This document shows, piece after piece, positions 11,508 to 64,000 of a stretch of DNA of 64,000 nucleotides. The DNA lies in assembly GCF_000004075.3 (NCBI RefSeq), contig NC_026655.2:4836001-4900000 (forward strand), given 5' to 3'. The notes beneath the pieces are model-generated. The model was not told the DNA's origin. It did not search any database and saw only the letters and a program-made list of their open reading frames with translations. Made by a program: the position numbers and the translations under genes. This DNA is from Cucumis sativus. Its lineage: Eukaryota; Streptophyta; Magnoliopsida; Cucurbitales; Cucurbitaceae. How positions within the stretch are numbered: position 1 is the first letter of the stretch; each line of letters opens with the position of its first letter.

Positions 11508-14048
11508 TCACTCTGCACCATTTTCGTCATTGTCTCCTTCAGCTGCCTGCTTTTGCTTTTCTTGTTCCTCTACACAGAATTGAACAAGCAAAAAGTTCAA
11601 AAAGGCAACCAAACAAGGTGCTCTGAATGTTTTAACCGGATCCGTAATTTCAGACTTCAAATAATTTTCTAGCATCTCTATGATACACATGATAACTACT
11701 CTTGCAACTTTCAATGCATAACTAGCTAACTAGGGTAACCTACATCAATTTGAATACAACTATAAGACATGTAATGCCTTCTAAAAAATATAGGTTCAAA
11801 ACCTCATCTCCTATTTGAAGTGTAATGTCCCAAGTAAATGAATAAATAAGAAACTCGCTTATGCCTTCTAAAAAATATAGGTTCAAAACCTCATCTCCTA
11901 TTTGAAGTGTAATGTCCCAAGTAAATGAATAAATAAGAAACTCGCTTATACCGACTCTAAGATCCACAACTACTCTTGATACCAAAAGATCCCTATCCCC
12001 CAAACTTTTACAGCCCAGCCAAGTTCAAAGTTTCAAGATTGAAGACAGCTTATAATCCCAGCAGAGACAAGTGCAATGACTTCGGTTGGAAAATGTTAGA
12101 GAAAAATGTTGCAACCAACAGTACATCACACATGTTTAACCTCAACACAAATGCTTGAAGAAGATAATCAAGATCTCTTAATTGTTCATAACTGCAGTGG
12201 TGCATAGGAATTTGCTCACAAGTTAAATACATCAAAGAGAAACAGAACCAGCAAACAAAATGGTATTATGTATATGCCAATCATCCCGAGATAGATATCT
12301 TCTCAGACAAACAAAGAAAATAAAATTCAATCCATAGTCTAGCTACACTACAAGAAAAGGCAAGTCAAAGAACGAGCATAGTGTAATGACCTATCAAGTT
12401 AACCTTTAATTGAATACTTCTACTTACCCATAAGCTTGAATAGTGCTTTCTGTGTGCGTCTTTCAAGCTTATCAAGCTTCTTCTGCACGTCCCTTCTAAG
12501 GTCCCAGTTTGGTTTCTTTGGAGCGATATTTACAAATGGGTCCTATAATTTTAACGATCGAGTATAATTAATAGAAAAGGATTCAAAAAGTATGATTGTA
12601 GGCCAGTTTAAGAACATATAAAGGCAGAACTGACAAAATTACCTCTTTTAGTTGTGGAGGTTCAGAAGTAACAGGGTCCTCAAATTTAGGCAATACAGGT
12701 GGGGCAAGCTTGCCCTCCTGAAGCTCTTTATCATGAGGAACATAGTTCCGAAATTTCATATTGAGATTACTGCAAAAGAACAATTTATTGGTGAATCAAG
12801 AACTGAAGAGACACGAGGCATAAAAAAATTCAACATCAAAAAATACGTTTGTCTGTATTTTGCACTCTTCCAAGAGGGAAGTTTCATCGTAATTGAGTAC
12901 ATAAATTTTTCAAGTGAGTTTGGAATGAGAACAGCATCAAACAAAACACATATTCAATGGACAAGAGAATGTTATTTATATTGAACGCATTTTCCCCCTC
13001 AAGAGAAAACATATTGGAAAACTTTTGAAGGTAAACATGAGAACATATCGCCCCGAAAAAAAAAAAAGCAATTAGGCTGTATGAAGCATTGCAATCAATG
13101 GGACCACCTCGCCATCATCCTAAACTCCTACAAGCACAAATGTTATTAAAAACTAGAAAGGAAAAGAGAAAACACAAAAAAGAAACAGAAACAAAAACAA
13201 AAACAAAAGAAAAGGAAAGAAAGAATTGAAAAGTAAATGAAAGGAAAAAAAAAAGAAGTAAACATCTTATTGAAGGGAGGATAACTTTATGAGCATACTT
13301 CACATTTCACATGCTTTGTGTTAACATAAGCTTTACAGGTTAGTTTCTAGTACTATTCTATCATATATTTGGTTTTAGTCTTATGCTCTATAGCTTTTGT
13401 GGCCATTTTGCGACTCTAGTCTGCAAAAAGAAAGACACATTTTACTAAGGAAACTAAGGCAACTTTTGTCTGTCCTGCCCCTACGCAAATACTATTGCCA
13501 ATGCTTTTGTTTGTAATATGCCCCAATCCAAGTTCTAGAGAGCTTAGCACACTGGCAACAGCATGCGTTAGTAGCCTGTAACATGTTTCAAGCCAGATTC
13601 TAGAAACTTGGCTCACTATGCTAAGTATGTAATTTCAATATAGACTCCCGCCGTACAATAAAAGAGAGAAAATAAGTCAGATGACAGACACAAAGATAAA
13701 AAGGATGGCTAAACGCTAAAGGAAGGGAATGAGAAAGAAATAGTTAAAACAGAAGGAAAATAGGTCAGGCAATAAACACATAGACAGAGATAAAAGAGAT
13801 AAAGAGGACATTCAAAACGAGATATAAAAGAGAGTAGCATGAATTTGGAGAGATACCACAGAATAGATATTTAAATGAGAATACACTCACGTTTCATCAG
13901 AATCTTCAGTAGCTCCATTCTCTTTATCCTCTCCTCCAGAATTCTTCTCATCTGAATTGTTTAACAATTCCTGAGCAGCTCTTAGAGCTTTCAATCTCTC
14001 TTTACGTGCTGCAGCAACTTGTTCCACGGAGTCTTCTTCAGTAGCCAT
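11508..14048 (-). CDS. CCDC12: CCDC12 / Cwf18 family pre-mRNA splicing factor, 153 aa
   Basis: Exons (minus strand, 5' to 3'): 14048-13891, 12769-12643, 12542-12428 and 11569-11508; phases close to 153 codons plus TGA. Hallmarks of the Cwf18 family are NYVPHDKEL at about residues 60-68, NIAPKKPNWDLRRDV in exon 3, and a basic helix after it (KKLDKLERRTQKAL). Residues 8-31 form a likely N-terminal coiled coil and the tail is acidic. Family knowledge: Cwf18/CCDC12 is a small component of the activated spliceosome (nineteen-complex related) and acts in the nucleus. The length is normal. It lies head to tail with LSM8, another splicing-related gene, though sharing of a promoter is not indicated. 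Identity is well supported. Confidence 0.9.
11774..11947 (+). repeat. Perfect 87-bp tandem duplication in the last intron of CCDC12
   Basis: Bases 11774-11860 are repeated exactly at 11861-11947, with divergence only in the third base after the second copy. Exact identity means a recent duplication. Because 87 is a multiple of three, it creates a repeated-peptide frame that is only an artefact. The exons at 11569 and 12428 are not affected. Confidence 0.9.
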
Positions 14049-25425: not shown

Positions 25426-27109
25426 ATGCCGCCGAGACGATATGCTTTTGGACGGGCCGATGAGGCCACCCACCCCGACTCCATTCGTGCTACCTTAGCT
25501 GAGTTCATTTCCACTTTCATCTTCGTCTTTGCTGGCGAAGGCTCCGTTCTCGCTCTTGGTATGACTGTTTTACAGTTATTTTGAAAGTAAAAAATTGACT
25601 AATAAACTAATTTTAAATAATCAACAACGATTTGACAAATGATTTTTTTTTTTCAAACATGCAACCGCCCAAACTTGATCTTATTAAAAAATTCAATATT
25701 GTATTTGAAAGGATTTTCTTTTAAATTTTTTTACAAACATTTTCAAGTACATGCATGCAAGATCAATGGATGGATTATTAATTTCTTGGTTTTCCATTTT
25801 TGCAGATAAAATTTTCAGGCCAGCGGATTATGGAAGTTATGGTCACGGAAGTTATGGGCATGGAAGTTACGGCCGAGGAGGGTACAGTTATGGTCACGGT
25901 TATGGTAGAAAGGGGACCGACACAGGCAGAGCTGCGTCCGATTTAGTAGTGATAGCGATAGCACACGCGTTTGCGCTGTTCTCGGCGGTGGCAGCGAGCA
26001 TCAACATATCGGGTGGGCATGTGAATCCTGCAGTAACTTTTGGGGCCCTTATCGGAGGGAGGATATCTCTTATTCGTGCATTCTTCTATTGGGTTGCACA
26101 GATTTTGGGTGCCATTATCGCTTCACTTCTCTTGAGACTTGCAACGGGTGGCATGGTAAAAGAAAAACACTCACATATAACTAATGCTTTAGAAAATGTA
26201 GCCTTTAATTTTTTTTTTCTTTTTTCACAATTATATGAAGATTCAAGAATAAAAAAGGTTAAGAAAAAAAAAACAAAATACTAAAGATCTTGAACTCATT
26301 ATTATTTTAAAGTACACATATAACTTTTGTGTATGTTTCCGAAGTATCTAATCAAACTTTTAAGAAGGAAGAAAAAAGAAATGTTTTTATTTTTTTTTTC
26401 ATTTAACTTTTAATTCCACAATTTCGTGCATACTCAAACTGACTCTCTCTGGTTTCACCATCTAAGTTCTGTAAACGTAAGAAAAGAGCTCCAAAATTTT
26501 GGCTAAGCATTCAAAGCAATTGAGGAAAATGTGCTTAATTTTTAAAAACTAAGAGGCTTCCATCTAAGTCTCTCATGCCATGCTTCATAACCCTTTTAGA
26601 TTATTGTTTCTAGTAGAGGCGCTCAAGATATCCATCCCTAATTTTTACTTTCCTTTAACGTCCTTACTTCCTTTGTTTATTTTATCATCTCTTTTTTTTT
26701 TTTTTTTTTTGTCAAATTGCAGAGGCCTATGGGGTTCTTTGTTTCATCAGGAGTATCGGAATTGCACGGGTTTCTACTAGAGATAATCCTTACATTTGCA
26801 TTGGTCTACACAGTTTACGCAACAGCAATAGACCCAAAGAGGGGCAGTTTGGGAACAATAGCACCACTGGCAATCGGGTTAATAGTCGGGGCCAATATTC
26901 TGGTGGGTGGGGCCTTCGATGGGGCCTGCATGAACCCAGCAAGGGCATTTGGGCCTTCTTTAGTGGGCTGGAGATGGGACAATCATTGGATCTATTGGAT
27001 TGGCCCATTAATCGGAGGTGGGCTTGCGGCCCTTGTATATGAGTACTTGGTCATTCCCGTTGAACCTCCTCTACATACTCACCAGCCCTTGGCTCCCGAG
27101 GATTACTGA
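25426..27109 (+). CDS. TIP3: Tonoplast aquaporin TIP3 (alpha-TIP) with repeat-built loop A, 289 aa
   Basis: Exons 25426-25558, 25806-26155 and 26723-27109 give 289 codons plus TGA. The N-terminus ([20 protein letters not shown]) and overall sequence are those of seed TIP3. Both NPA boxes are intact (HVNPAVT, Asn118; CMNPARAFG, Asn232). The selectivity-filter positions read His98 / Ile / Ala / Arg235, the TIP3 pattern. Six membrane helices fit the hydrophobic blocks. Family role: water (and small neutral solute) channel of the protein storage vacuole membrane in maturing seeds. Oddity: residues about 53-80, between helix 1 and helix 2, form a Gly/Tyr/Ser/His-rich repeat (GSYGH units) in place of the short loop usual in TIP3, making the protein some 25-30 residues longer than most. 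The loop should face the vacuole lumen. The conserved LALDK junction before it and RAASDLVV after it show it is in frame. Confidence 0.95.
25750..25759 (+). promoter_or_regulatory. Overlapping RY motifs in TIP3 intron 1
   Basis: CATGCATGCA in the first intron, 47 bases before exon 2, contains two overlapping RY repeats and one palindromic CATGCATG. With the upstream RY and ABRE it could be an intronic seed enhancer. The motif is short and may be chance. Confidence 0.35.
25832..25906 (+). repeat. 15-bp coding minisatellite in TIP3 exon 2
   Basis: Three clear units of the form GGAAGTTAYGGNCAY (25832-25846, 25847-25861, 25862-25876) are followed by two decayed ones (25877-25891, 25892-25906). 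Each encodes Gly-Ser-Tyr-Gly-His or a variant. The unit length of 15 keeps the frame, so the loop probably grew by slippage or unequal exchange. Confidence 0.9.
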
Positions 27110-27301
27110 GTTTTTTTTTTTTTTTTTTTAATTTGTAAAAACATATTCGAATGTGTGTTTTGGATGTGAGACTGTTTTTCTGCTCTATATGTTGTAGGGT
27201 TTTTTTTTCTTCTTTGGAAAAGACTCGAAGCCTTTTGTTGGCCAAGGGTGGTTTGTTGTCTCCGTTTGGGGTTTATTTGTGGTGTTTATGTTCATGAAGG
27301 T

Positions 27302-27307
27302 AATAAA
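27302..27307 (+). terminator. AATAAA polyadenylation signal of TIP3
   Basis: A canonical AATAAA lies 193 bases past the TIP3 stop and follows a GT-rich stretch (27240-27290). The spacer from 27310 to 27880 lies between convergent genes; it contains TCAAGGTTCGATCTTA (27404-27419), a B-box-like word but no recognisable tRNA gene. Confidence 0.5.
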
Positions 27308-27879
27308 TGTCATACAGCTTACATCTTTATCTTTTCTTAAATTCTAAGGTGATGTTTTCTTTTCTTTTCCTTTTTAAATCCATTTGTGATAAGGTCAAGG
27401 TTCGATCTTAAAGGTTACCCCCTATATTTTTTATAAATCCAAATACGGTGACATTTTCAAACGGAGAATTCAATAAATTTCACAACAGAGACAAAAGAGT
27501 TGGATTAGGTTATGGAAATACCATGAATAGGTCCAAAGTTTTGCCCTTAATCCATATCCTTGTCGTCCTCGTAAGTTGACATTTCATTTCCTGTAATTTC
27601 AAGACAAACCAAAAATGGTCCTTCAATCTTTTGTCTTTGCTCTCCATATTCATTTTGGTCCTTAATACTATTGACACGAATTATAAACTAAAATATAGTC
27701 ATCTCTGTAAAAAATGAATTATATATATCTGAAATTGTGAAAGGAAAAAAGGATAAACAAGGAGAAAATGAAACCAAAACCGACGTACAAAAGAACAACA
27801 TGACTTATGACAGTACGTATACTAAAACAATAAACGCAAAAAAAATATACAAAAATAGGATTGAACCTGAACAGTTCTT

Positions 27880-30800
27880 TCATTTCATTTTATAGTATTT
27901 GGCAACCCAAGGAGCAAGTTGGGTGTTGTGAGGTGATCTTGGATTGGATGCATAATAATCAGACCAGTAACAAGGGGTGAGTTTATGAGCGAACCTTCCG
28001 TTGGAAAAAATGCAAAAAGGAAGCCAATCTTCACCGCCATTCATCCTTTTCTTGCGTTCTCTGGGATAAGCCAATGGCGCCTGGACATACCTGAAAATAA
28101 AGCATCTCAGCAATCTTCTTATGATCAAACATATAAGCACAAGTTCATGCGTATAAAAAGGGTCACACAATGAGAAGAATTCATTGTCTTCTACTCCTTT
28201 TCATGCTCTAAAATTTGAACTCGAAGGTCAAGGAAAAATTTTGCATTTTGCAAGTGAAGTGAAATGATTTAACATTACCTGATGCCATCAAGTACTAGAT
28301 CCCAGCAGAAATGGGTATGACCAAACACATGACATGCTGATGTTGTTTCTTTACTCCCGTGTATTGATCTTATACGATCCTCGAGATAATCTGAGCCAAT
28401 GATTTTAGGGAGTTTTGGGTAGAATAGCATCCTCTTTTCTGGACATAGCTCTGGCCTATGAACACAACAAGCAAAGCACATCATTATATTAACAAAAATG
28501 ACAAACACAAAGAAGCTATTGATAAAAAAGTCATAAATCATCATATGCTTGACTTCGTCAAACGTTTCAGTAGCCATGCTTTCCCGTGATTAAGAAGCGA
28601 TCCTAGTGGTAAGAGTATAGGATGTTTAGTGATAAGCTCCAAGATCGTGGATTTAATAACTTCATTATTTTAACCCTAGAAGCTAGCTTTGGATCGGCGA
28701 ACTTTCTCTTCCAAAGGTTAATTGGAATGGGACATGAACATATACATAATGAACATAATCCATGGAGTGGGGTCCTCCTATACCCCTGTTATTTAATATA
28801 ATTGGCAGTTATCAAAATTCTAAAAAAGAAGAAGTAATCCAAACTTGCCCTCTGGTTTGAGTCAGTGTTTGATTGGGTTCAGGAGAAAGAATGTAAATCC
28901 AACTTCATTTAAGAATCTAAGTGCCATAAATGAATCATCACACTTGTTGCTACTTTATATGCAACAATAAAGTGTGGACCAAATACCTCGATTAAATAAT
29001 TGCATTTCCAAGGCAACAGCATACGACATGCAAATTGAACACTGTCTATTGACATAAACGATCCATAATTTAACAACATATAAAAGATGCACCAAATGCT
29101 CTCCATAGAAGACCGTGATATGAGAATCAGTTTGTAAAACACAATTAATGAGTTGGGTGTTTGCGCACGTATATTTACTGACCTGGGAACAAAGTGAGAA
29201 AATGTAATTATCTGACTGCAGGTTCTTCGAATCTTCTCGATCATTATATTATTCTTTTCATTCATTGCATCAAAGAACAATGCTAGTGAAGCACCTTCAT
29301 TTGAAAGATCTCCGGGCCATTTACATGCATGGAAGTCTTTACATACCTGCCATTAGCCATTTAAAACCAATTGGTCCAATTCCACGAGTTTTCATTTTCA
29401 AATCAACGGATTCAAATAAGAAAATGAAGTTGCAAAAATAACCAAAATAAAATTTCGTGTAAAAGGATTAAAAAACAGTACGAAGACACAACAATAATCT
29501 CGAGCCTTCTTCAAACACAAATAATATAACTACCATGCGTGAACATCTACAATAAAGTAACTAATTGGGAGAATTGTTCACTCAATAAAATTTTATCACA
29601 GCAGATATTATAATGAGAAACGAAATGGAAGTTGCCAGCAAGCTATAGGTACAAAACATTGAAATTTCAAAGCTCAACTGTAGAAGAGAGAAAACTCCTT
29701 ATTCCACCAACACAAGTTTTGATCATTGCTCAAGGTAACATTCCATGAGAAATCAAAGAAACAGGAATCTTGAAATAAATACACAGACAAGTTGAAAAGA
29801 TGCAGCCCACATCAAACGAACCAAAAAAGACATTCAAAATGCAAAAATTAAAAGGGATGGAGGACAAAAGGCAAACAAATTAGAGCTCTGGAAATGGAAT
29901 TAGTTCTCCATGATACGAAGAACTAATTTCATTTCCATTTCCATTTTCTATATGTATTATTCAAAAGAAAACAAAAATCCAATGAGACCATTGCAAGAAC
30001 CTTGAATAATAAATAAAAAGATTAACATGAAACTATACCAAAGGCGTTATAGATACAGAAAAAACCTGATATTAAAACTAGATCTAAAGACTCTTACTAG
30101 GGAAAAGAAAGTGAATCACCATCTCCAGAGATGGAATGCGGATACCCTGTAAGTCCATTTCTCTGTCAAAACTCTGATGCAAAAACATCAAATAACGCAC
30201 AAGGATGAGCATTAATATCACTAGAACTGAAAGCTACAAAGAGAAAGTAACAGTCAATCACCCACCTCGTGATACCAAGAGAACAACGGAACTATTCCCA
30301 ATCCGTTCAAGATTGCCGGATTGGTATCAACTCCAAGATCTCTACACGCATCAAGAAGTTTACTCATCTTCTCAATAGAATCGAGCTGAAAAAAAGAAAG
30401 CGTGTAATGAAATAGCTAAGAAGGAAAATCTAATGAAAATCACAATGTATAGATGCTTCAAAACTGGTAAGTCATCCTAAAAATATAAAAACTAAGAAAT
30501 TACGAGAGAGCTTACAGCACGAAACCTAACCTCCAACCACTTACATAATTGTCTTCCTCCCGACGGCACCACAGATCATGATTCCCAGGCACAAAGAAGA
30601 CGCGCTCAAATCTATCCTTCAACATAGCCATTGTCGAAACAAAATTACTTATCGTCTCGGCTACATCTCCGGGGACAATAAGAACATCGTCTCTATATTT
30701 GTCCAATGACAAGGAGTGAATCCAGTTCATATTTTCGTCGTAATCCGTATGTAGATCAGAGAGCACAAAGACTCGCAGGCCACCGTCTTCTCCGAATGCG

Positions 30801-30949
30801 GAAGGCAGAATATGAGGCCTCGCAACACCGAAACATTTCAACTTCGCGCCTCTCTGATTTTTGCGTAGAGGTGCAAGGATCGAAGGGGGATTAGAAGGGC
30901 GGAGTTTTAGTGTAAAGTTCGAACAAAAAGGAACAAACGTAGCCACCAT
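27880..30949 (-). CDS. Calcineurin-like metallophosphoesterase, probably plastid-targeted, 376 aa
   Basis: Exons (5' to 3'): 30949-30545, 30385-30266, 30173-30120, 29346-29183, 28455-28279 and 28090-27880, giving 376 codons plus TGA. The five metal-site motifs are in order: SDLHTD (Asp65, His67), GDVAE (Asp95), GNHD (Asn123, His124), TFSHF (His244) and GHTH (His294, His296). This is a complete dinuclear metal centre of the calcineurin-like superfamily. The first 45 residues are rich in Ser, Pro, Lys and Arg and poor in acid, as in a chloroplast or mitochondrial transit peptide. The ATG at 30949 is the first in frame. The substrate is not known to me; plant relatives are annotated only as metallophosphoesterases. 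The catalytic core looks active. Confidence 0.9.
28596..28700 (+). mobile_element. Possible degenerate SINE head in phosphoesterase intron 4... A-box/B-box-like
   Basis: The intron between exons 5 and 4 (28456-29182) contains GATCCTAGTGGTAAGAG followed by TCCAAGATCGTGGATTTAAT. The first shares CCTAGTGGTAA with the SINE at 20898-21101, and the second sits where the B box would be. The tail is missing or decayed, so this is a weak call. Confidence 0.25.
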
Positions 30950-31539
30950 GAGGCATGAGCGGTGTGGCAATTGGCCGTCCGACTGGCTTCGTGAAATGCG
31001 AGGAGTCGGGATTCTCGCCTCTCGTCGGAGTTAAACAAAAAAATATGGATAAAATGTGGCGCCTAAAATTAAATAGAAAGGTTGGGTTACCTTCTCATAA
31101 TCTTTTCAAAAGTTGCAAAAAGATTTATATTTCTACATTTTGCTATTTAAAATAATTTCTTGTTTTTATTAAACTTAAATTTAGATTCTCTTTTCACAAT
31201 TATTTTTAAGAGATTATTTTAGCAAGAAAGATTATAGAAATTAAATGTTTTGGTTTATTTTTTATATTTAAAATTAGTTAATTAACAAACGGGTCTGAAT
31301 TAGAGGATAGTGAGATCATAAAAAGTAAAAGAAAAAATTAAAATATTTTAAATAACTTGAAGAGGCTTAATTTAAAACAATTATATATTGAGCCGAGATT
31401 TCTATAAATAAAGATGGCGTTGTCAGGTGTGACAGAACGATGTAGCAGATCCAAATTTCGATGTCCAACATTTATTACACTTAGATTTGTAAAATATTTT
31501 ATTTTTTATAATTTCCCTTAAATTAAATAAAAAAATACA

Positions 31540-31680
31540 TTTTTAAAAATAGCAAAATAAATTAAAATATTTACCCGCTATAACAAATTTTTGGATTATA
31601 TTAACGATAGAAACTAAACTTATATCAATGTCTATCGATACGTAGAACCATATATCAATGTCTATCGATACGTAGAACCA
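31540..31680 (+). repeat. Copy of dispersed A/T repeat with perfect 30-bp tandem duplication
   Basis: TTTTTAAAAATAGCAAA, AAATATTTAC and CTATAACAAA here match 57200-57267 closely. The tail 31621-31650 is repeated exactly at 31651-31680 and contains TCTATCGATA, a near-palindrome. The same family is seen at 2041-2110 and 56861-56960. Confidence 0.7.
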
Positions 31681-32007
31681 TATTAACACCTAGTAGACTA
31701 CCTAGACTAGCTAAACATGCATTCTAAAGATTGTATTCTATTGGAACTACATCACTAAAAACATTAACAAAGTAGAGAACAACAATGTAGCTTATGATAA
31801 TGTCTTTCAACAAATTGCAAAGGAAATGGTCTTTCAACAATGCAGCTTATGATATTCTATTGTACTGGTAGCTTTGCAGAGTTTATATGGGATACCAAAT
31901 ATATGTTCGAATTCAAGTTCTAAACTCCAAGGTATGGTTTTTCTATTATTACCGTACATTGCAAAGGAAATGATGGATACGACACTGCCAACGTAGAGGA
32001 GTGGATA

Positions 32008-32210: not shown

Positions 32211-32481
32211 GGAGAGAGTTGAAGGGGGTAACTGCAAACGCGGGAGAGTTCAAATACTCTGGTTTACGTTTTTCTTTTGAACGGCCTTCTGTCTTTGGGT
32301 TGAAGAAAAGGAAAAAGAAGAAAGGGAAAAAGAGGCAGGAAAATAAAAAAGGTATTTTCGTCATTTCACCTCCAATTTATCCTAAATTTCAACTTTTTTA
32401 CAATCAATCCTAAAACTCTTTTTCTACCCATTTTTGGCCTATTTTTGTCAATTCCCCGATATTTTTGTTACACGATTGTCC

Positions 32482-32547
32482 ATGGGTTCTTTGCCAAAGC
32501 AATGGAAGAGCGGTGAAATTAATAGACAAACAAATGCAGATTCATAG
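32482..32547 (+). other. Upstream frame overlapping the PPR start
   Basis: An ATG at 32482 opens a 21-codon frame that ends at 32547, 14 bases past the A of the PPR start codon at 32534 and in another frame. If the leader begins upstream of 32482, this would lower translation of the main frame. Confidence 0.4.
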
Positions 32548-34339
32548 GTTCTCTTCATCTTCCACCTTGATTACCAAGAAGCCTCTTTATCTATGGAACT
32601 TGACGATTAGAAGCTCTGTCAATGGCGGGTTTTTCGCCCAATCTCTTGAAACCTACTCGTTTATGCGCCACTCTGGAATCCATGGCAACAATTTCACCTT
32701 TCCTCTCCTCCTCAAGGCTTGCGCCAATCTTGCTTCGATCGGTGATGGCACAATGCTCCACGCTCACCTCATCCATGTAGGCTTTGAATCAGACGTCTTT
32801 GTTCAAACCTCGCTCGTTGACATGTACTCCAAATTTTCTAACTTGCGTGCTTCACGCCAAGTGTTTGACGAAACGTCTACAAGAAGTGTCATTTCTTGGA
32901 ATTCTATGATTGCTGCTTATTCTCGTAGTTTTCGGGTTAATGAAGCTTTAAAGCTATTCAGAGAGATGTTGGGGGGTGGATTTGAGCCAAATTCCTCAAC
33001 TTTTGTAAGCTTATTGTCAGGTTTTGCTGACCCAACTCATGGATCTCTCTTTCAGGGACGTTTGCTACACGGTTGCTTAACCAAGTTTCAACTTCATGAT
33101 GATACGCCTGTCGAAAATTCTCTTGTGCAAATGTACGTAAACTTTGGTCAAATCGATTCTGCTTGCTCTGTTTTTTATGCCATCAGCGAGAAGACAGTAA
33201 TTTCTTGGACAATAATGCTTGGTGGTTACTTGAAAGCTGGGGCTGTTGCCAAAGTATTCGAAACCTTTAGCCAAATGAGGCAAAATAATGTCGTATTGGA
33301 TAAATTTGTTTTTGTAGACATAATCTCCTCTTGTATACAACTAGGAAATTTGTTTTTAGGTTCTTCACTTCATTCCCTCCTCTTGAAAACTGGGCTCAAG
33401 TACGAGGATCCTATTGGTTGTTTGCTCATTAGCATGTATTCAAAATGTGGAGACCTCTTGTCTGCTCGAGCAGTATTTGATTTGTTATCTGAAAAAAGCA
33501 TCTATTCATGGACATCAATGATAAGTGGATATGCCAATGCTGGGTATCCCAGAGAAGCATTAAGTCTATTTTCAATGGCAACACAAAATAATGTTAGACC
33601 AAATGGAGCAATGCTAGCTACTGCTATCTCTGCTTGTGCTGATTTAGGATCATTGAGCATGCGTAGGGAAATTGAGGCATTCATACAGCAGGACGGTTTA
33701 GCATCGGATAGTCAAGTTTCAACATCGTTGATACATTTGTATTGCAAATTTGGAAGTATTGAGAAGGCAGAAAAAGTTTTTAATAGTATGATACATAGAG
33801 ACTTGGCAGCTTGGAGTTCCATGATGAACGGTTATGCCGTGCATGGGATGGGAGAAAAGACGATGAATCTGTTTCATGAGATGCAAAGATCAGGAATAAA
33901 ACCAGATGGTTCTGTTTATGCAAGCATTTTATTGGCTTGCAGTCATTCAGGTCTAGTGGAAGATGGACTAGAGCATTTCAAGAACATGCAGTTGGATTAT
34001 GGAATAGTACCTACCATGGTACACTACACTTGTTTGGTAGACATTCTAAGCCGAGCTGGTCATCTAGAATTAGCTTTGAATACAATTCAAGAGATGCCTA
34101 CCCAATTTCAATCTCAAGCTTGGGCTCCTTTCCTCAGTGCTTGCAGAACTTATTGTGATGTTGAACTTGGAGAAGTTGCAAATAGATGTCTATTAAGTTC
34201 AAATCCTAGAAACCCAGTAAATCATGTTTTGATGGCTAATTTATACACATCTATGGGTAAGTGGAAAGAAGCAGCCAAAGTGAGAAGTTTGATTGATGAT
34301 AAAGGTTTGGTCAAAGAACCAGGATGCAGCCAGCTTTAA
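32534..34339 (+). CDS. PLS-type pentatricopeptide repeat protein, E subgroup, 601 aa
   Basis: An intronless frame of 601 codons. It consists of tandem PPR motifs of P, L and S type, with repeated signatures such as VISWNSMIAAYSR, SWTSMISGYANAGYPREALS and AWSSMMNGYAVHGMGEKTMN. The C-terminus carries an E-type block ending in VKEPGCSQL. No DYW domain follows. The N-terminus (Arg, Ser-rich: MQIHRFSSSSTLITKK) suggests organelle import, probably mitochondrial. Family role: sequence-specific binding of organellar RNA, often as specificity factor for C-to-U editing. The start is the first in-frame ATG; an upstream overlapping frame exists. After the stop, the same frame reads IYGPIHIITEE, like the beginning of an E+ motif, so the tail may have been shortened by a late stop codon. 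The target RNA is unknown. Confidence 0.92.
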   Translation: MQIHRFSSSSTLITKKPLYLWNLTIRSSVNGGFFAQSLETYSFMRHSGIHGNNFTFPLLLKACANLASIGDGTMLHAHLIHVGFESDVFVQTSLVDMYSKFSNLRASRQVFDETSTRSVISWNSMIAAYSRSFRVNEALKLFREMLGGGFEPNSSTFVSLLSGFADPTHGSLFQGRLLHGCLTKFQLHDDTPVENSLVQMYVNFGQIDSACSVFYAISEKTVISWTIMLGGYLKAGAVAKVFETFSQMRQNNVVLDKFVFVDIISSCIQLGNLFLGSSLHSLLLKTGLKYEDPIGCLLISMYSKCGDLLSARAVFDLLSEKSIYSWTSMISGYANAGYPREALSLFSMATQNNVRPNGAMLATAISACADLGSLSMRREIEAFIQQDGLASDSQVSTSLIHLYCKFGSIEKAEKVFNSMIHRDLAAWSSMMNGYAVHGMGEKTMNLFHEMQRSGIKPDGSVYASILLACSHSGLVEDGLEHFKNMQLDYGIVPTMVHYTCLVDILSRAGHLELALNTIQEMPTQFQSQAWAPFLSACRTYCDVELGEVANRCLLSSNPRNPVNHVLMANLYTSMGKWKEAAKVRSLIDDKGLVKEPGCSQL

Positions 34340-35126: not shown

Positions 35127-38100
35127 CTATGGTCCTCGCATTTTCTCAACAATATTCCTACTCTTTTCTTCAATATTACGTCTCTTTTCTTCTAGTTTCT
35201 CCCCCATCTTCTTCCCTATCTCTAACATTCTAGCTCTTCTTCCTATTCTTTTTGGCTTTTCATCTTCTTCAGCGTTATAACTTTCCTGCCCGGATGATAA
35301 GCTGCTTGTAGACCTAGATGGTGAATGATTTTCTTGGGCATACTCTCTATTACGTTGCTGGAAATTTTCAACTGCTTTGTCATTTTCTAATAAAGGGACT
35401 TTCATTTCATTTTCGTCCGATGTCTTTTTTGTAGCTCGAGCTGGATTAGTAGTACTTGATGAAGGCTTTGATGCATTGGACAAGTCAGAGTGTGATTGAG
35501 AAGATTCAGCGTTCTTAGGTCTTTTGTCCTCAATACCCTGCTGGTCTGTGGAGGTGGTTTTAGTGGCTTCAGATCTATTCTTGGCCTCAACAGGATGGGA
35601 GCTTTGATTTTCACATGAAGCTTTATTGTCAGAAGCTCCTTGGTTAAGCCACATAAATGGTGCAATATCCCTTGGAACCCAGTCATCCTTCTCTGCCATC
35701 ATAAATGGGATGTAAATACTTTCACTGTTGGGGAGCACTAAAGTATCTCTTATCACTGCCTGTATATTTGGTAACAATGGCAGTATCAGCAGTTGGACAG
35801 CAATATTGCTCAAATATGGGTTGTAGAAAAGATATCATCAGACATGAGTTCAACTTTTCAGTTACTAAGTTACACGTTTTCATGGTCATGTAAATTTCAA
35901 TTTGAGTCTAGTTCAATGATAAAAAAACTTGCATTCCTTAAGAATAGGAGTTCAAGATGGAGTTCAAATTCCCATATCTCCAATTGTACTAAAAAAACAG
36001 GATAAATTATGGAATGCTGTGAGCGCAAACAAATTGACGTACTTGAGGCTCAATTTTCTATTTGAAAACATCACATGTGATTCTTTGTTATCAATTGCTT
36101 CCTCCTTTTTCATACAAAAACAAAAATATCCCGACACTTTCATTCAAATATCTACCTGAACCAACATTTTCCAAGTGAAAAACAAAATGAGAATGAACAA
36201 TTAACATCCTAATCATTTAACATAAACAATATATATATATATATATAAAACAACGAAAAGCCAACATGTTATGAATTATGAAACACATCTCCATACCTTA
36301 ATTCGATTGTTCAAAAACTGAGCAACATGTGCACTAGTTATCTTATGGTCCCCGAACGATGAAGCCAAGCGCAACTCCAAATAAGGCATGGATGTAAAAC
36401 TGTACCATAGTTGATCAGAAGGAGGTGGCTTTATATGTAACCGAAGTGTCCCCCGAAGAGATCCAACCTTTATTACCAAGGAGATAGGCACCTATAAATT
36501 CATGAACGAAATGAGAGAAGTATTAGACATCTAACAGTGGTTTTTTTAGTTTCAAGATACACTTCTACTTAACTCTCAAGTGCAGAAATTCAACAAACCT
36601 GAGAAACCTGTTTAGCAATGGAATTCATTAAAGATTTCCACCTGGATCCACTAGAGGACGAGGACGAGGAAGCAGGGTTCTTATTGTTTCCTGGCCCACC
36701 TGCAACCGAACATTGTATCGAACTTTTAACTACTTAGTAAAAATATTTGTCTAGCATTTTCATGATGAGCATATAAGAACCTAAAATCAGAATTCTCACT
36801 GTATATTTCCAAATATACAATTTTAAAAGCTCCCATCATGAAAATTAACTTGAGATAAATCTTATACCATCTAGACAGCGTAGAAATTTTAAAAGCTCAA
36901 TAGTTCCAAATATACAATTTAACTTGCAGATATGTGCAGATTTACGAAGACCACTTTTTTCCACTTCCGATAGTAACATTATATTCATTTTGCTTTGAGA
37001 TAAATCTTATACCATCTAGACTTTGTGCAGGCAACACAGTATAAGTAGAAACATAAGCGAAAAGAAATCCATGTTCAAACACGTCATGAAAACCATCTAT
37101 TTGTTAGTCAGTCACCTTCATCGTTCTGATCTGTTCCTTCAGAGGAACTGAGCTGCTTTCCAAGATAATCTTCTAGAAATGAAGAAACCTCCCCAACATC
37201 GCTTGAATCAGATTTTGAGTCTACTGCGTTTTTTTGAAGATCTAATTCATGAACTTCAATTCTAGTTTCAATGTCTAAGGCAAACCCTCCAGAGTATTCA
37301 AAATCGACCTCCAAGGCCCATACCTCATTCAATTCAAAGGGAAGAACCCTAATAATATTAATATTGGGCGGGAGATTTCCAGGATCAACTTTAGTACAGA
37401 TAATTTCACCAATGTAACTTGGAGTCCTCATCTTGGACAACATCCTCTGCCATGGAAAAAAAAAAAGTAACATGACCCTGGCATGAACTAGAACAGTAAC
37501 AACGTTTATTCCAAGAAATGACAGTCCAAAAGGATGTTATCCTAATCAACCAACTATAAATGACTTGATACAACCATAAACGTTTACAAGGTTTGCAGTT
37601 GACACCATTATTTGGCGAATAAATATGTGTTCCTCCTTTTCCCAGTAACAAAATATATTGTATTTATGGATTAAAATTCCAAACATTCATCAAACAATGG
37701 AAGAAAATAGTGACAGGAGTATTAGAAAGATAATTAACAAAAATCATCTACATGCCTCTGACACTACTTAAATTGATTCAACATGCCAAAAAAGAAAAAG
37801 GATCTCTTGGGGAAAGAAATGAACCTGAATTCGATCATGTAAAGATTTCATTAGCCCTTCATTGCTTGTGGCATCAAAAAAGAATCTCGACATCAACAAA
37901 TTCCAACAAAGCGTTCCTTCATCAGTCCAGAATCTGTCATCAGTATCTGCATCAGAGACAACGGAGGCATGACTTTGGCTAATTGAATGAGTCAAGGTTG
38001 ATGGTGCTCCCATATCTTCCTCAAAGAAACTTTTAGTACTCTGCGCCTTTGGAATTCCCTTTACTAAGCCTGCTGATGAAATGAAATCTGGACCGGGATG

Positions 38101-40207
38101 ATACCTCTCGCTAAATCTTTTTTCTTCACGCAAAGAAGAAGAAGGATTTGCTATGTAATCTGAAGCAGCCTTTGAAGTCTTTTTTGCCAGCTTTTTGAAA
38201 AATTGGCGAACCTTTGAAGGAGGAACATTAGGCTTGATCTCCTTATCTATTGCTTCAGTATGGTGCCCTGTAGAGGGCTTCATAAATGAAGGATACCCAG
38301 TACTTAATGAAGAAATATAACTATGGAACTCTTTCTGCAATTTAGCAACCGACCGCAGTTTTTCTTTGTCAACACATGAGGCTAAACGGAGGGCTTTGCA
38401 CCATGATTCCTTCTCCCAGGAAGTCTCAAGAAAAATGAAAATTCTTTTACTTTCATGATAAATTACAGAGGTCCTATTTTCCAATATTAAAGGGAACCTT
38501 TTCACCCTGAAATACCAATACTCAAATTAGAAAGATGGAGTCTCAGAAGAATAATAAAAGGCAAAACTTGAATTCTCATCATATAACTCAAATTTTTGCC
38601 TTCAAGATAACAAAACAAATATTTTGCAGGTTCCACACATCAGGAATATCAACACGTTAACCGCTATATCGTGTAGAGTCAATTTAGAAGAATGATTATG
38701 CAACAAACAACAAAAAATAGTGTGAATTAAAAAATATATATATATAGCATTTGATACAAGAAGGTAATGATAGGACTAGCTTTTGAAAAGATCTGGGTCC
38801 CATAACAGTACACACTACTAATTTTACTTGTATGCATAGCTGCGAGCTACTACAAATTCAACCATTTCTTATCAGAAGGAATTCAGGAAATAGTGCAACT
38901 TAATTTCTTCTGGGGATAAGCACTAACCAGCTCAAATTCATTTCAAGATTTAACTAGTTTGATTAATCGTGGAAAACAAAAGTTATTGAGAGAATATGGG
39001 CAGTGACCAGGGTCGAAGTTATTAGAATTAATTCAGCATCTCAAGGACAAGCAATTAGAATGAAAGAAGCATATGTATGCAAGACAGTTTTGAGCATGAA
39101 GTCATCATTATCATTATATTCTTGAGTGTTATCATTACAATTCAACCAAAATACTCAAAGTCCTTCAGAATCAAGTTTTTGCATCAGTTTTATGTGATTT
39201 AAATCTTATAAAAACAAGAAAACAAGAGAAATATGAAAGAAGCTACCATTTTCTGGAAGGCAAGTCTGTTGCTGAAACAGCTTCAACTGTGCAGCCATTT
39301 AATTGAATTGTTGTTCTCTTCTTACCATCTAGTTCCGTTATCACTAATGTGTGGTCCTTGATTCTTGCATACTTTTTTACCGGAGTTACCTCCAAGAAAT
39401 CCTTCCTTTTCTTTTGCTCTTTGGGTCCTTTCTCTATGATATCTTCTAACACATTTGATTCTAATATCCAAACAGAACCCTGAGGAATAAAGAGCACATT
39501 TACCATACCAGCTTACTTGGCAATGCAAAGAATCACACAAGTAGAAACAGTACATCTTGTACTAAGGCTACACAAGAAAAGCAACTTAAAATAGTTGAAA
39601 CCTGTCTTCCTCTTCTAAATTAATACAAATTGAACCATTATGGCGCAATTGCAGCGGATCAAGACCTGGAAACAATCTTCTCATACCAGAGTTCAAGGTA
39701 ACAAGAAAACCAAACTTATTTCAATAGATCTTCCAATTATGAAGCAACCCCAGTGCAAAGTTAATACAAACACAACGTATGCAAGTAAAATTCAAGAAAC
39801 TAAACTCCAAGCACCAAAATCCCGAATTATTAGTCAATTTAGTAAACTCAACAACCACTACATACACATTTATTAGTAACACAACTATATAATATTTCAG
39901 TCATTTTTCACACGTTTGAAGTCCTAGACGAAACAAGAATACAGAAAACCTGAATTGAGAATTACCATTACATATTTCCAAGATTAGAAGCACCATTAAA
40001 TACCTGTTTGTTCGAAAGAAATTCAAGGGATTGAAGAGGATCTAGCTCGGATTGGTCTAACTTGGCATTGGCTTTAGCTAAATCCTTTTGAGACCTCTTA
40101 CTCAACTTGTTCAAAATGATGAAGATTCCAAAAGCCTCCGCCCCAACGATTGCCACAACCCCAAAAACAAAACCAAACAAGAACGTCAGAATCAAGAGCG
40201 ACCCCAT
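35127..40207 (-). CDS. SMP/PH-domain ER lipid-transfer protein (TEX2/Nvj2 type), 792 aa
   Basis: Exons (5' to 3'): 40207-40004, 39479-39247, 38506-37825, 37446-37116, 36699-36599, 36491-36297 and 35759-35127, giving 792 codons plus TAG or TAA-type stop at 35127. Residues about 4-33 form a membrane anchor (LLILTFLFGFVFGVVAIVG). Residues 69-190 look like a PH domain (SVWILESNVLEDI to WCKALRLAS). The SMP domain begins near GTLCWNLLMSRFFFDA and runs through IGEIICTKVDPGNLPPNINI, exon 5 (a Ser-rich loop) and exon 6 to about residue 595. The tail is Ser-rich and then basic coiled coil (MLEIGKKMGEKLEEKRRNIE). Family knowledge: SMP proteins transfer lipids at ER contact sites; TEX2 and yeast Nvj2 share this layout. 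From memory, At1g17820 and At1g73200 are the Arabidopsis counterparts. Confidence 0.9.
36229..36246 (+). repeat. (AT)9 microsatellite in SMP gene intron 6
   Basis: An uninterrupted AT run in the intron between the exons at 36297 and 35759. Confidence 0.9.
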
Positions 40208-61267: not shown

Positions 61268-61300
61268 AGGGGGAAACAGAGGAAAACAGAAGGGTGTTGT

Positions 61301-61325
61301 GTGGTGGTGGTGGTGGTGGTGGTGG
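61301..61325 (+). repeat. (GGT)n tract directly before the ABCG11 start
   Basis: About eight GGT/TGG units end three bases before the ATG at 61328. In frame it would read poly-Val, but no ATG precedes it, so it lies in the leader. Confidence 0.85.
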
Positions 61326-61327
61326 AG

Positions 61328-64000
61328 ATGGAGATTGAGGCGAGCAAATCGACGGGGAATGGGGCTGTGGCGATTGGGTTGAGTCCTTTGAGTGAGACGC
61401 TATGGCGAGAGAAGACGAACACGGAGATTGTTGGGGACGTTTCAGCAAGATTGACATGGAAGGATCTGACGGTGATGGTGAGTTTAAGCAATGGAGAAGT
61501 TCAGAAAGTTTTGGAAGGATTGACTGGTTACGCTGAGCCTGGAACTTTCACTGCTTTAATGGGACCTTCTGGTTCTGGAAAATCTACTCTTCTTGATGCT
61601 CTTTCTAGTCGTCTTGCTTCTAATGCCTTTCTTTCTGGTACCATTCTTCTCAATGGACGCAAAACTAAGCTCTCCTTCGGCGCTGCGGTCCGTTCTCTTC
61701 TATTTTCCTCTGTTTTCATACTCTGTTCTGCTTTACTATTGGCTGTTTTGATAATCTATGGGGTTTTGGGTAATCATTTCCCATAAACATGATTAAGATT
61801 GTGTATTTAGAGAAAGGGTTTCATTATATTGAGTTAGTATTACGTGGGTCTTTCTTAAATGGATGATTAACTTTCTTTCAGCCGAATATAAGACGGTTGG
61901 GATTGGAAACGTTTTTTTTTTTTTTTGTTTTTTTCTCGGGAAACAAACAGAAATTTTCTGAAGTTGTGATCTCTTTTTGTTGTTATGGTTCTTAAGTTTT
62001 CTTCACTCTCAGGCTTACGTGACTCAAGATGATAACCTGATCGGCACATTGACGGTGAGGGAGACGATAGCCTATTCAGCTAGGCTTCGTCTCCCGGACA
62101 AAATGCCATGGGAGGAGAAACGAGCTTTGATAGAGAGCACCATCATCGAGATGGGTCTTCAAGATTGTGCCGATACAGTCATTGGGAACTGGCATTTACG
62201 CGGAATCAGTGGCGGCGAGAAGCGGCGGGTTAGTATCGCCATTGAAATTCTCATGAGGCCTCGATTGCTCTTCCTCGATGAACCTACAAGTGGACTCGAC
62301 AGGTACGTTGAAAGAAACCTAACCCTAGGAATAAAATCACTAGAAAAAAATTGCTTGAATTTGTAATGTGGGTTCTGTGATTTTGGTAGTGCTTCTGCTT
62401 TCTTTGTTACTCAAACGTTGAGAGCTTTATCGAGAGATGGAAGAACAGTGATTGCCTCAATTCATCAGCCGAGTAGTGAGGTTTTTGAGCTATTTGATCA
62501 ACTTTACTTGCTGTCGGGTGGCAAAACTGTGTATTTTGGTCAAGCTTCAGAGGCTTATGAGGTGAGAATTCTTCCATTTTTGAGCTAATGCGCGTTACAG
62601 AGGTGAATCTTTTCACCATTGTTGGAGGTTTTGATATTGAATTGTTGATCTGTGCAGTTCTTTGCTCAAGCTGGCTTTCCCTGCCCCGCTCTGAGGAACC
62701 CTTCTGATCATTTTCTTAGATGTATCAATTCAGACTTCGATAAAGTCAAGGCCACTCTCAAAGGTTCTATGAAATTAAGGGTATAACTTTTTCTCCAATG
62801 AAGATTCTATAAGTTGAATATGATAGCAAATGGTGTTTTTCATAATTAAAGTTGCTTAGATAAACAAGGACAGCCAGAAAGTTGAGGCTAGGTCATGCAT
62901 TTCTTTGTCTCTAAACCTGTGTGCTAATTTAGTATATGGGAAGATTTAATCATTTACTGTCCCCTGCTTTGTTCAAGGTTGGTTGCTAAGTAAGGACAAT
63001 CAAAATCCTTTTACTAAATGCTGATTGCTAATTTCTAATCCATTTGCGTTGTTCAGTTTGAATCTAGTGATGATCCTTTGGAAAGAATTACCACGGCTGA
63101 AGCAATGCGAACTCTTATCGACTTCTATCGTTCGTCACAACATTGTTATGCAGCATTAGAAAAAGTTGAGGAGATCTCTAAATATGTAAGTCTTCAACTA
63201 GCTAGTTTTTTCCACTGCCAAATTATTCCCATTTCAACATTACTGACTCTTGAAGTTTTAACATTCTTCACAATCTCCATCGTGTTGCAGAAAGGAACCG
63301 TGTTAGATTTGGGAGGGAGTCAAGCTAGTTTCTTTATGCAAGCGTTTACATTGACAAAACGTTCCTTTATCAACATGTCAAGGGACTTCGGTTATTATTG
63401 GCTCAGGCTTGTGATTTACGTCGTTGTTACAATCTGCATTGGAACCATCTATCTTAACGTTGGAACAGGCTATAACTCCATTCTGGTATTTGATTTTGTT
63501 TACTGTGTTTTGTGCCTTCTTTTTCTTTACTTCCTTATATTAAGTGCCAAGATTATATTAGGACAAACAAGTCTGATTGTTCTGTTCAAAAGACTATCTA
63601 TATACACAAACTAATGATTTCAAGAAATAAATTCAAATTCATTGTTCAATGCTAACAAGTTCACCTATCTTGATCTGCTATAATATGGTGCAGGCTAGAG
63701 GATCTTGTGCATCTTTTGTCTTTGGTTTCGTTACATTTATGTCAATCGGAGGATTCCCATCCTTTGCAGAGGATATGAAGGTAAAATTCATAGTGAAACA
63801 CTGAAAATTTCGCATCATCTTGATTAGAAGAGAATGATTTAAACTTTCAACATGAATATTTTCCCCCAGGTTTTCCATAGGGAGAGATTGAATGGTCATT
63901 ATGGGGTCGGTTCATTTGTCATCAGCAATACTATCTCAGCCATGCCATTCCTTCTACTAATCACCTTCCTTTCTGGAACTATTTGTTACTTTATGGTTCG
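61328..64000 (+). CDS. ABCG11: ABCG11-type (WBC11) half-size ABC transporter, 3' part outside the window
   Basis: Exons seen: 61328-61687, 62013-62302, 62390-62561, 62658-62780, 63057-63185, 63291-63485, 63694-63780 and 63870 to the window edge; 452 full codons are complete before the last exon. The ABC domain has Walker [10 protein letters not shown] (residues 79-87), the signature ISGGEKRR (185-192) and Walker [13 protein letters not shown] (205-216), followed by the H-loop stretch [10 protein letters not shown]. Membrane helices begin with [20 protein letters not shown] in exon 6 and the order ABC-TM is that of ABCG half transporters. Family knowledge: Arabidopsis ABCG11 (At1g17840) exports wax and cutin precursors across the epidermal plasma membrane, as a homodimer or with ABCG12. 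The start is the only ATG before the conserved domain. Orthology to ABCG11 rather than another cuticular ABCG rests on sequence and on neighbours; I am fairly sure. Confidence 0.93.

Follow-up and report, generated by a model that had tools for sequence, protein, structure and literature searches.

The window analysed here is a 64,000-nucleotide stretch of the cucumber genome (C1:4836001-4900000; genome of 226.6 Mb in 88 contigs), and its gene at 25426-27109 is most likely cucumber TIP3;1, an otherwise ordinary TIP3 channel. A script-made splice model places three exons on the + strand, encoding a protein of 289 amino acids (aa):

25426..25558 (+): TIP3;1 exon 1, with the ATG, N-terminus and helix 1 (residues 1-44 and the first base of codon 45); from the splice model and the match to the published CsTIP3;1
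25806..26155 (+): TIP3;1 exon 2, with the expanded loop A, helix 2, the first NPA and helix 3; from the splice model
26723..27109 (+): TIP3;1 exon 3, with helices 4-6, the second NPA and the stop; from the splice model

The computed mass (30.66 kDa), pI (7.17) and GRAVY (0.46) of the encoded protein, together with its length, all equal the values published for CsTIP3;1 (Csa1M043290.1, chromosome 1, 289 aa, 30.66 kDa, pI 7.17, GRAVY 0.46; PMC6686268), and we therefore take the gene to be CsTIP3;1. That genome survey lists eight cucumber TIPs, one of them a CsTIP3, and a single aquaporin on chromosome 1 (PMC6686268); in our whole-genome search with Pfam MIP, the C1 matches were confined to the TIP3;1 gene (2 of 76 rows). 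The protein matches PF00230 (MIP) at 262.6 bits over residues 14-267, against a cut-off of 25, and carries two NPA motifs (residues 118 and 232) and a sole cysteine, residue 230. Its placement in the TIP3 subgroup is taken from the survey, which gives the ar/R filter H-I-A-R for CsTIP3;1, common there to TIP4;1 (PMC6686268); from this filter, H98 was located in the encoded protein. The channel core is unchanged and, judged from the family, should conduct like that of other TIP3s. A separate point of nomenclature is that a cucumber heat-stress paper names a CsTIP3;2 (PMC9990136), whereas the genome survey has the single CsTIP3.

Besides TIP3;1, nine of the 16 window frames of at least 130 aa were scanned against Pfam, four of the nine yielding no match. 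Other features of the window include:

11774..11949: 87-bp tandem duplication, its two copies 100% alike, which points to either a recent event or a duplication in the assembly
30515..31030 (-): calcineurin-like phosphoesterase match (Pfam)
31621..31683: 30-bp unit, 2.1 copies, 100% alike
32414..34339 (+): pentatricopeptide repeat protein with E motif, a single 641-aa open frame
37771..38526 (-): match to the PH domain associated with SMP (Pfam)
61268..61783 (+): ABC transporter ATPase match (Pfam)
63039..63611 (+): ABC-2 membrane domain match (Pfam)

Loop A and its 15-bp coding repeat

Loop A of TIP3;1, measured from the final helix 1 residue to the first Leu of helix 2, comprises 46 residues (45-90). 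Within it, after helix 1 and before helix 2, exon 2 carries an in-frame repeat array:

25808..25942 (+): loop A coding stretch, residues 46-90, after split codon 45; boundaries from the cucumber TIP paralogues and AtTIP2;1
25829..25909 (+): Gly/Tyr/His-rich core, residues 53-79
25835..25849 (+): unit 1, SYGHG, 15 bp
25850..25864 (+): unit 2, SYGHG, 15 bp
25865..25879 (+): unit 3, SYGRG, 15 bp
25880..25885 (+): interruption, GY, 6 bp
25886..25900 (+): unit 4, SYGHG, 15 bp; 14 of 15 bases identical to unit 1
25901..25909 (+): partial unit, YGR

The loop is unusually long, as the preliminary description had proposed. In the other seven TIPs of cucumber, taken from genomic loci and assigned names by chromosome and by sequence against the published table, loop A measures 13 (TIP1;1), 13 (TIP1;2), 14 (TIP1;3), 13 (TIP2;1), 13 (TIP2;2), 10 (TIP4;1) and 14 residues (TIP5;1); in five of the seven the stretch crosses an intron and was joined by eye. 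AtTIP2;1 (PDB 5i32), the best-scoring solved chain, has the TIP fold in common with TIP3;1 but a loop A about 33 residues shorter, which appears as a 33-residue offset between two aligned blocks. Tobacco TIPs, SIPs and XIPs have a loop A of 14 residues on average (PMC7285608).

Tandem Repeats Finder, run with a score cut-off of 40 (51 rows across the window), called 25832-25869 with a period of 15, 2.5 copies, 91% match and a score of 62. The sequence resolves into four SYGH/RG units starting at 25835, 25850, 25865 and 25886 (array to 25900), with pairwise identities of 10 to 14 of 15 bases. The repeat is where the preliminary description had reported it, as are the GSYGH-type pentapeptides, which exon 2 encodes in frame in the segment linking helices 1 and 2, and the three His of the core (residues 53-79). 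The core is made up of 11 Gly, 7 Tyr, 4 Ser, 3 His and 2 Arg with no acidic residue, and loop A as a whole contains Asp and is free of Cys and Asn.

Minisatellites consist of tandem units of about 10-60 bp, in many copies whose number varies among individuals. The 15-bp units fall within that size; as to copy number, there are four interrupted units and a length difference of one unit to melon. 'Minisatellite', the term first applied to this array, therefore suits the tandem 15-bp units and is generous for four short units called as 2.5 copies. The accompanying claim that the repeat built the loop survives in part: the repeat contributed length, but its units explain only part of the roughly 33 extra residues of loop A (45-90).

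No shuffle of the exon 2 codons matched the observed periodicity (0 of 2000), and shuffles of the 27 loop codons alone (25832-25912) matched it in 7 of 10000; the order of the units thus goes beyond codon composition alone. A search of the cucumber genome with the loop peptide, in which the best candidates are scored, scored one candidate and gave a single match at E up to 10, to itself; within that scope no donor gene was found, a weak negative.

Differences among the units fall mainly at third codon positions, where four of five columns vary compared with one of ten elsewhere (one-sided Fisher p=0.017 from four short units). Over the six unit pairs we count 13 synonymous codon differences and 3 replacements, all three from the Arg-for-His unit. 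At the level of sequence, this third-position bias is a weak sign of constraint on the peptide. It also bears on the possible, if rather unlikely, reading that the loop is neutral length variation, in which slippage lengthened a tolerant, exposed loop without effect. The imperfection of the repeat is in keeping with neutrality, as is the fact that, in tobacco, it is at loop A that the aquaporin subfamilies differ most markedly in length (PMC7285608); the mostly synonymous changes among units speak against it.

TIP3 length in Cucumis and other eudicots

The melon protein CmTIP3;1 (MELO3C002183.2; 284 aa, 30.08 kDa, pI 7.17) is the longest melon TIP (PMC7747737). It shares its pI with CsTIP3;1 and, compared by total length, which does not locate the difference, is 5 residues shorter, the length of one unit. 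A table value of 3 for CmTIP3;1, which we take as its exon number (PMC7747737), agrees with the three exons of the cucumber gene. Both published CmTIP3;1 qPCR primers match the cucumber TIP3;1 3' UTR with 0 mismatches, at 27177 and 27296, and for that reason we treat the two genes as orthologues:

27177..27317 (+): 3' UTR stretch, primer-matched at both ends, 141 bp; for melon, an amplicon of 144 bp is published

Removing GSYGH from CsTIP3;1 in silico gives 30.16 kDa and pI 7.13, against the published 30.08 kDa and 7.17 of melon; the melon mass is compatible with loss of a GSYGH unit only if other changes occurred besides, and is not proof of it. The one-unit length difference between cucumber and melon counts in favour of neutral variation, whereas the presence of a long protein in two species, not one, weighs on the other side.

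Outside Cucumis, we compared eight TIP3s from six eudicots, assigned to the same subgroup by their authors (nine rows, one dropped): sweet orange, 256 aa; tobacco, 260, 260 and 259 aa (PMC7285608); birch, 253 aa; apricot PaTIP3-2, 260 aa (PMC8520955); Kosteletzkya, 256 aa; and sugar beet, 257 aa. All eight measure 253-260 aa in total, a figure that does not give the placement of residues, and such proteins leave little room for a loop of this kind unless it is offset elsewhere. At 289 aa, CsTIP3;1 lies outside the usual TIP3 length of about 253-260 aa, a feature that does not define the subgroup. Because these eight TIP3s are all short, the long form is not general among TIP3s; judged on protein lengths, the loop is not one that all TIP3s carry. 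The long form probably goes back at least to the Cucumis (cucumber-melon) ancestor, as the lengths suggest. As far as they were consulted, papers on passion fruit, flax, Arachis, common bean and cork oak, and the cucumber heat-stress paper, supplied no length for a TIP3.

The dropped row is apricot PaTIP3-1 (255 aa), rejected as a TIP3 for its N-V-G-C filter, as in TIP5; the range is unaffected. PaTIP3-1 looks misnamed, its filter being that of PaTIP5-1 in the same table (PMC8520955). The low predicted helix count of CsTIP3;1 (5) was likewise rejected as a mark of the loop, since sugar beet TIP3;1 (257 aa) also has 5. A translated search for relatives in viral_contigs confirmed none of 82 pattern matches. 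Among the matches listed, open-access titles and abstract beginnings contained no description of the TIP3;1 loop, and the accessible part of the CsTIP3;1 paper (PMC6686268) does not remark on loop A or its repeat.

Expression and splicing

CsTIP3;1 is published as relatively more highly expressed in seed, and a predictor places it in the vacuole (PMC6686268). This expression and the four matching published numbers bear out the initial assignment of the gene as a cucurbit TIP3 of seed. Its melon orthologue is predicted to reside in the tonoplast or mitochondrion; qPCR detected its expression in root and leaf, though RNA-seq showed it to be low (PMC7747737). Given the root and leaf signal, the role may not be confined to the seed vacuole. 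Upstream of cucumber TIP3;1 there are one RY motif (25276) and one ACGTG (25184), weak hints of seed expression, and intron 1 holds three RY motifs (25658, 25750 and 25754). RY and ACGTG motifs number 18 and 21 in the window, which makes this weak evidence. The overlapping intronic RY seed motifs at 25750-25759, CATGCATGCA, form a possible intronic seed element.

Alternative splicing could remove the array partly or wholly, leaving the usual protein short-looped, and exon 2 up to 25990 does contain nine in-phase AG sites. Use of the AG before 25926 would neatly remove the array and leave a loop of about 6 residues, and four later in-phase AGs (exon start 25947-25962) would remove it while trimming the start of helix 2. 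In the 20 bases upstream of the modelled acceptor (exon start 25806), however, there are 14 pyrimidines, 11 of them T, compared with 5 pyrimidines and 1 T before 25926 and at most 10 pyrimidines at each of the other eight (8-10 pyrimidines and 5-7 T at the four later sites). The published CsTIP3;1 model is the 289-aa form and the melon model is also long, both being gene-model predictions. We regard such splicing as very improbable.

Possible roles of the presumed lumenal extension

We hold with middling confidence that this seed TIP3;1 carries a loop A grown by a repeat into a flexible lumenal extension that is weakly kept at the peptide level and acts electrostatically. Loop A would have lengthened to 46 residues, probably from a TIP-like length (10-14 in cucumber). 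Part of the growth would have come from in-frame slippage of the 15-bp SYGHG unit, in a lineage to which at least the common ancestor of cucumber and melon belongs. The expansion itself, assisted by the repeat, is real, and probably Cucumis-wide or older.

Aquaporins are homotetramers, and in the AtTIP2;1 structure the loops do not overlap onto neighbouring subunits, loop A folding back onto its own subunit with the channel open (PMC4814140). By comparison with that fold, the extra segment of TIP3;1 most likely projects into the lumen at the side of the pore, as a presumably flexible lengthening of loop A; it would be tolerated because loop A lies to one side of the pore.

An effect on gating or permeability, in which the extended loop alters water flow, perhaps with pH, seems unlikely. 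Mutations in PIP loop A do alter permeability, as with C69A in cork oak PIP2;4, which is said to resemble SoPIP2;1 (PMC13242448), and the His content of the TIP3;1 loop would change its charge between pH 7 and 5.5. The PIP mechanism, however, works through a loop A cysteine, whereas TIP3;1 has only Cys 230, outside the loop; the open channel of AtTIP2;1 with its loop A folded back also argues against this reading.

The most plausible effect of the extension would be electrostatic. With textbook pKa values, the core has a charge per subunit of +2.3 at pH 7, +4.3 at pH 5.5 and +4.7 at pH 5.0, so that each loop may pass from about +2 at pH 7 to +4 to +5 at pH 5-5.5. Four such loops per tetramer could form a cationic patch able to touch anionic contents of the vacuole, for example phytate or storage globulins, if binding occurs. 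Since the core charge comes without acidic residues, at the pH of the vacuole contact with polyanions is favoured over the binding of metal. That the three loop His bind metal is, in our judgement, highly unlikely. The three His lie in the core near Tyr, and the homotetramer (PMC4814140) would present four loops; most of these His would, however, be protonated at pH 5-5.5 (pKa 6.0), and they are spaced within a Gly-rich core that lacks Cys and acidic residues. Of the roles suggested in the preliminary description, metal binding and gating meet these counter-arguments, and attachment to storage proteins or phytate and condensation are hypothetical.

A stronger version of the electrostatic role seems quite unlikely to us. 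Here the extension would act as an acid-switched sticker. As the storage vacuole acidifies and dries, the four cationic, aromatic loops of a tetramer would attach to phytate and storage globulins, or to one another; this would gather TIP3 into clusters and anchor the membrane to the vacuole matrix as the matrix condenses, and the number of units would tune the strength among cucurbits.

Exposed flexible loops make good protease targets, and the loop could be a cleavage site at which helix 1 is trimmed off in the storage vacuole. Pumpkin has a protein-body membrane protein in two sizes, MP23 and MP28, on which a search of the open-access literature found nothing relevant. Vacuolar processing enzyme prefers Asn, which the loop lacks, though Asp is present, and we give proteolysis hardly any credence.

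The leading readings of the extension are a mild electrostatic role and drift. The loop is real, but as a departure from a well-known protein it is modest. Should it matter, TIP3;1 would be a case of a short coding repeat altering a major seed vacuole protein on its lumenal side, and the number of units could be tested for a link with seed drying, longevity or vacuole structure across related crops. Should it have no effect, TIP3;1 would be a clean case of an expanded loop being tolerated. In both cases, loop A calls for caution in any TIP3 alignment or model that includes cucumber.
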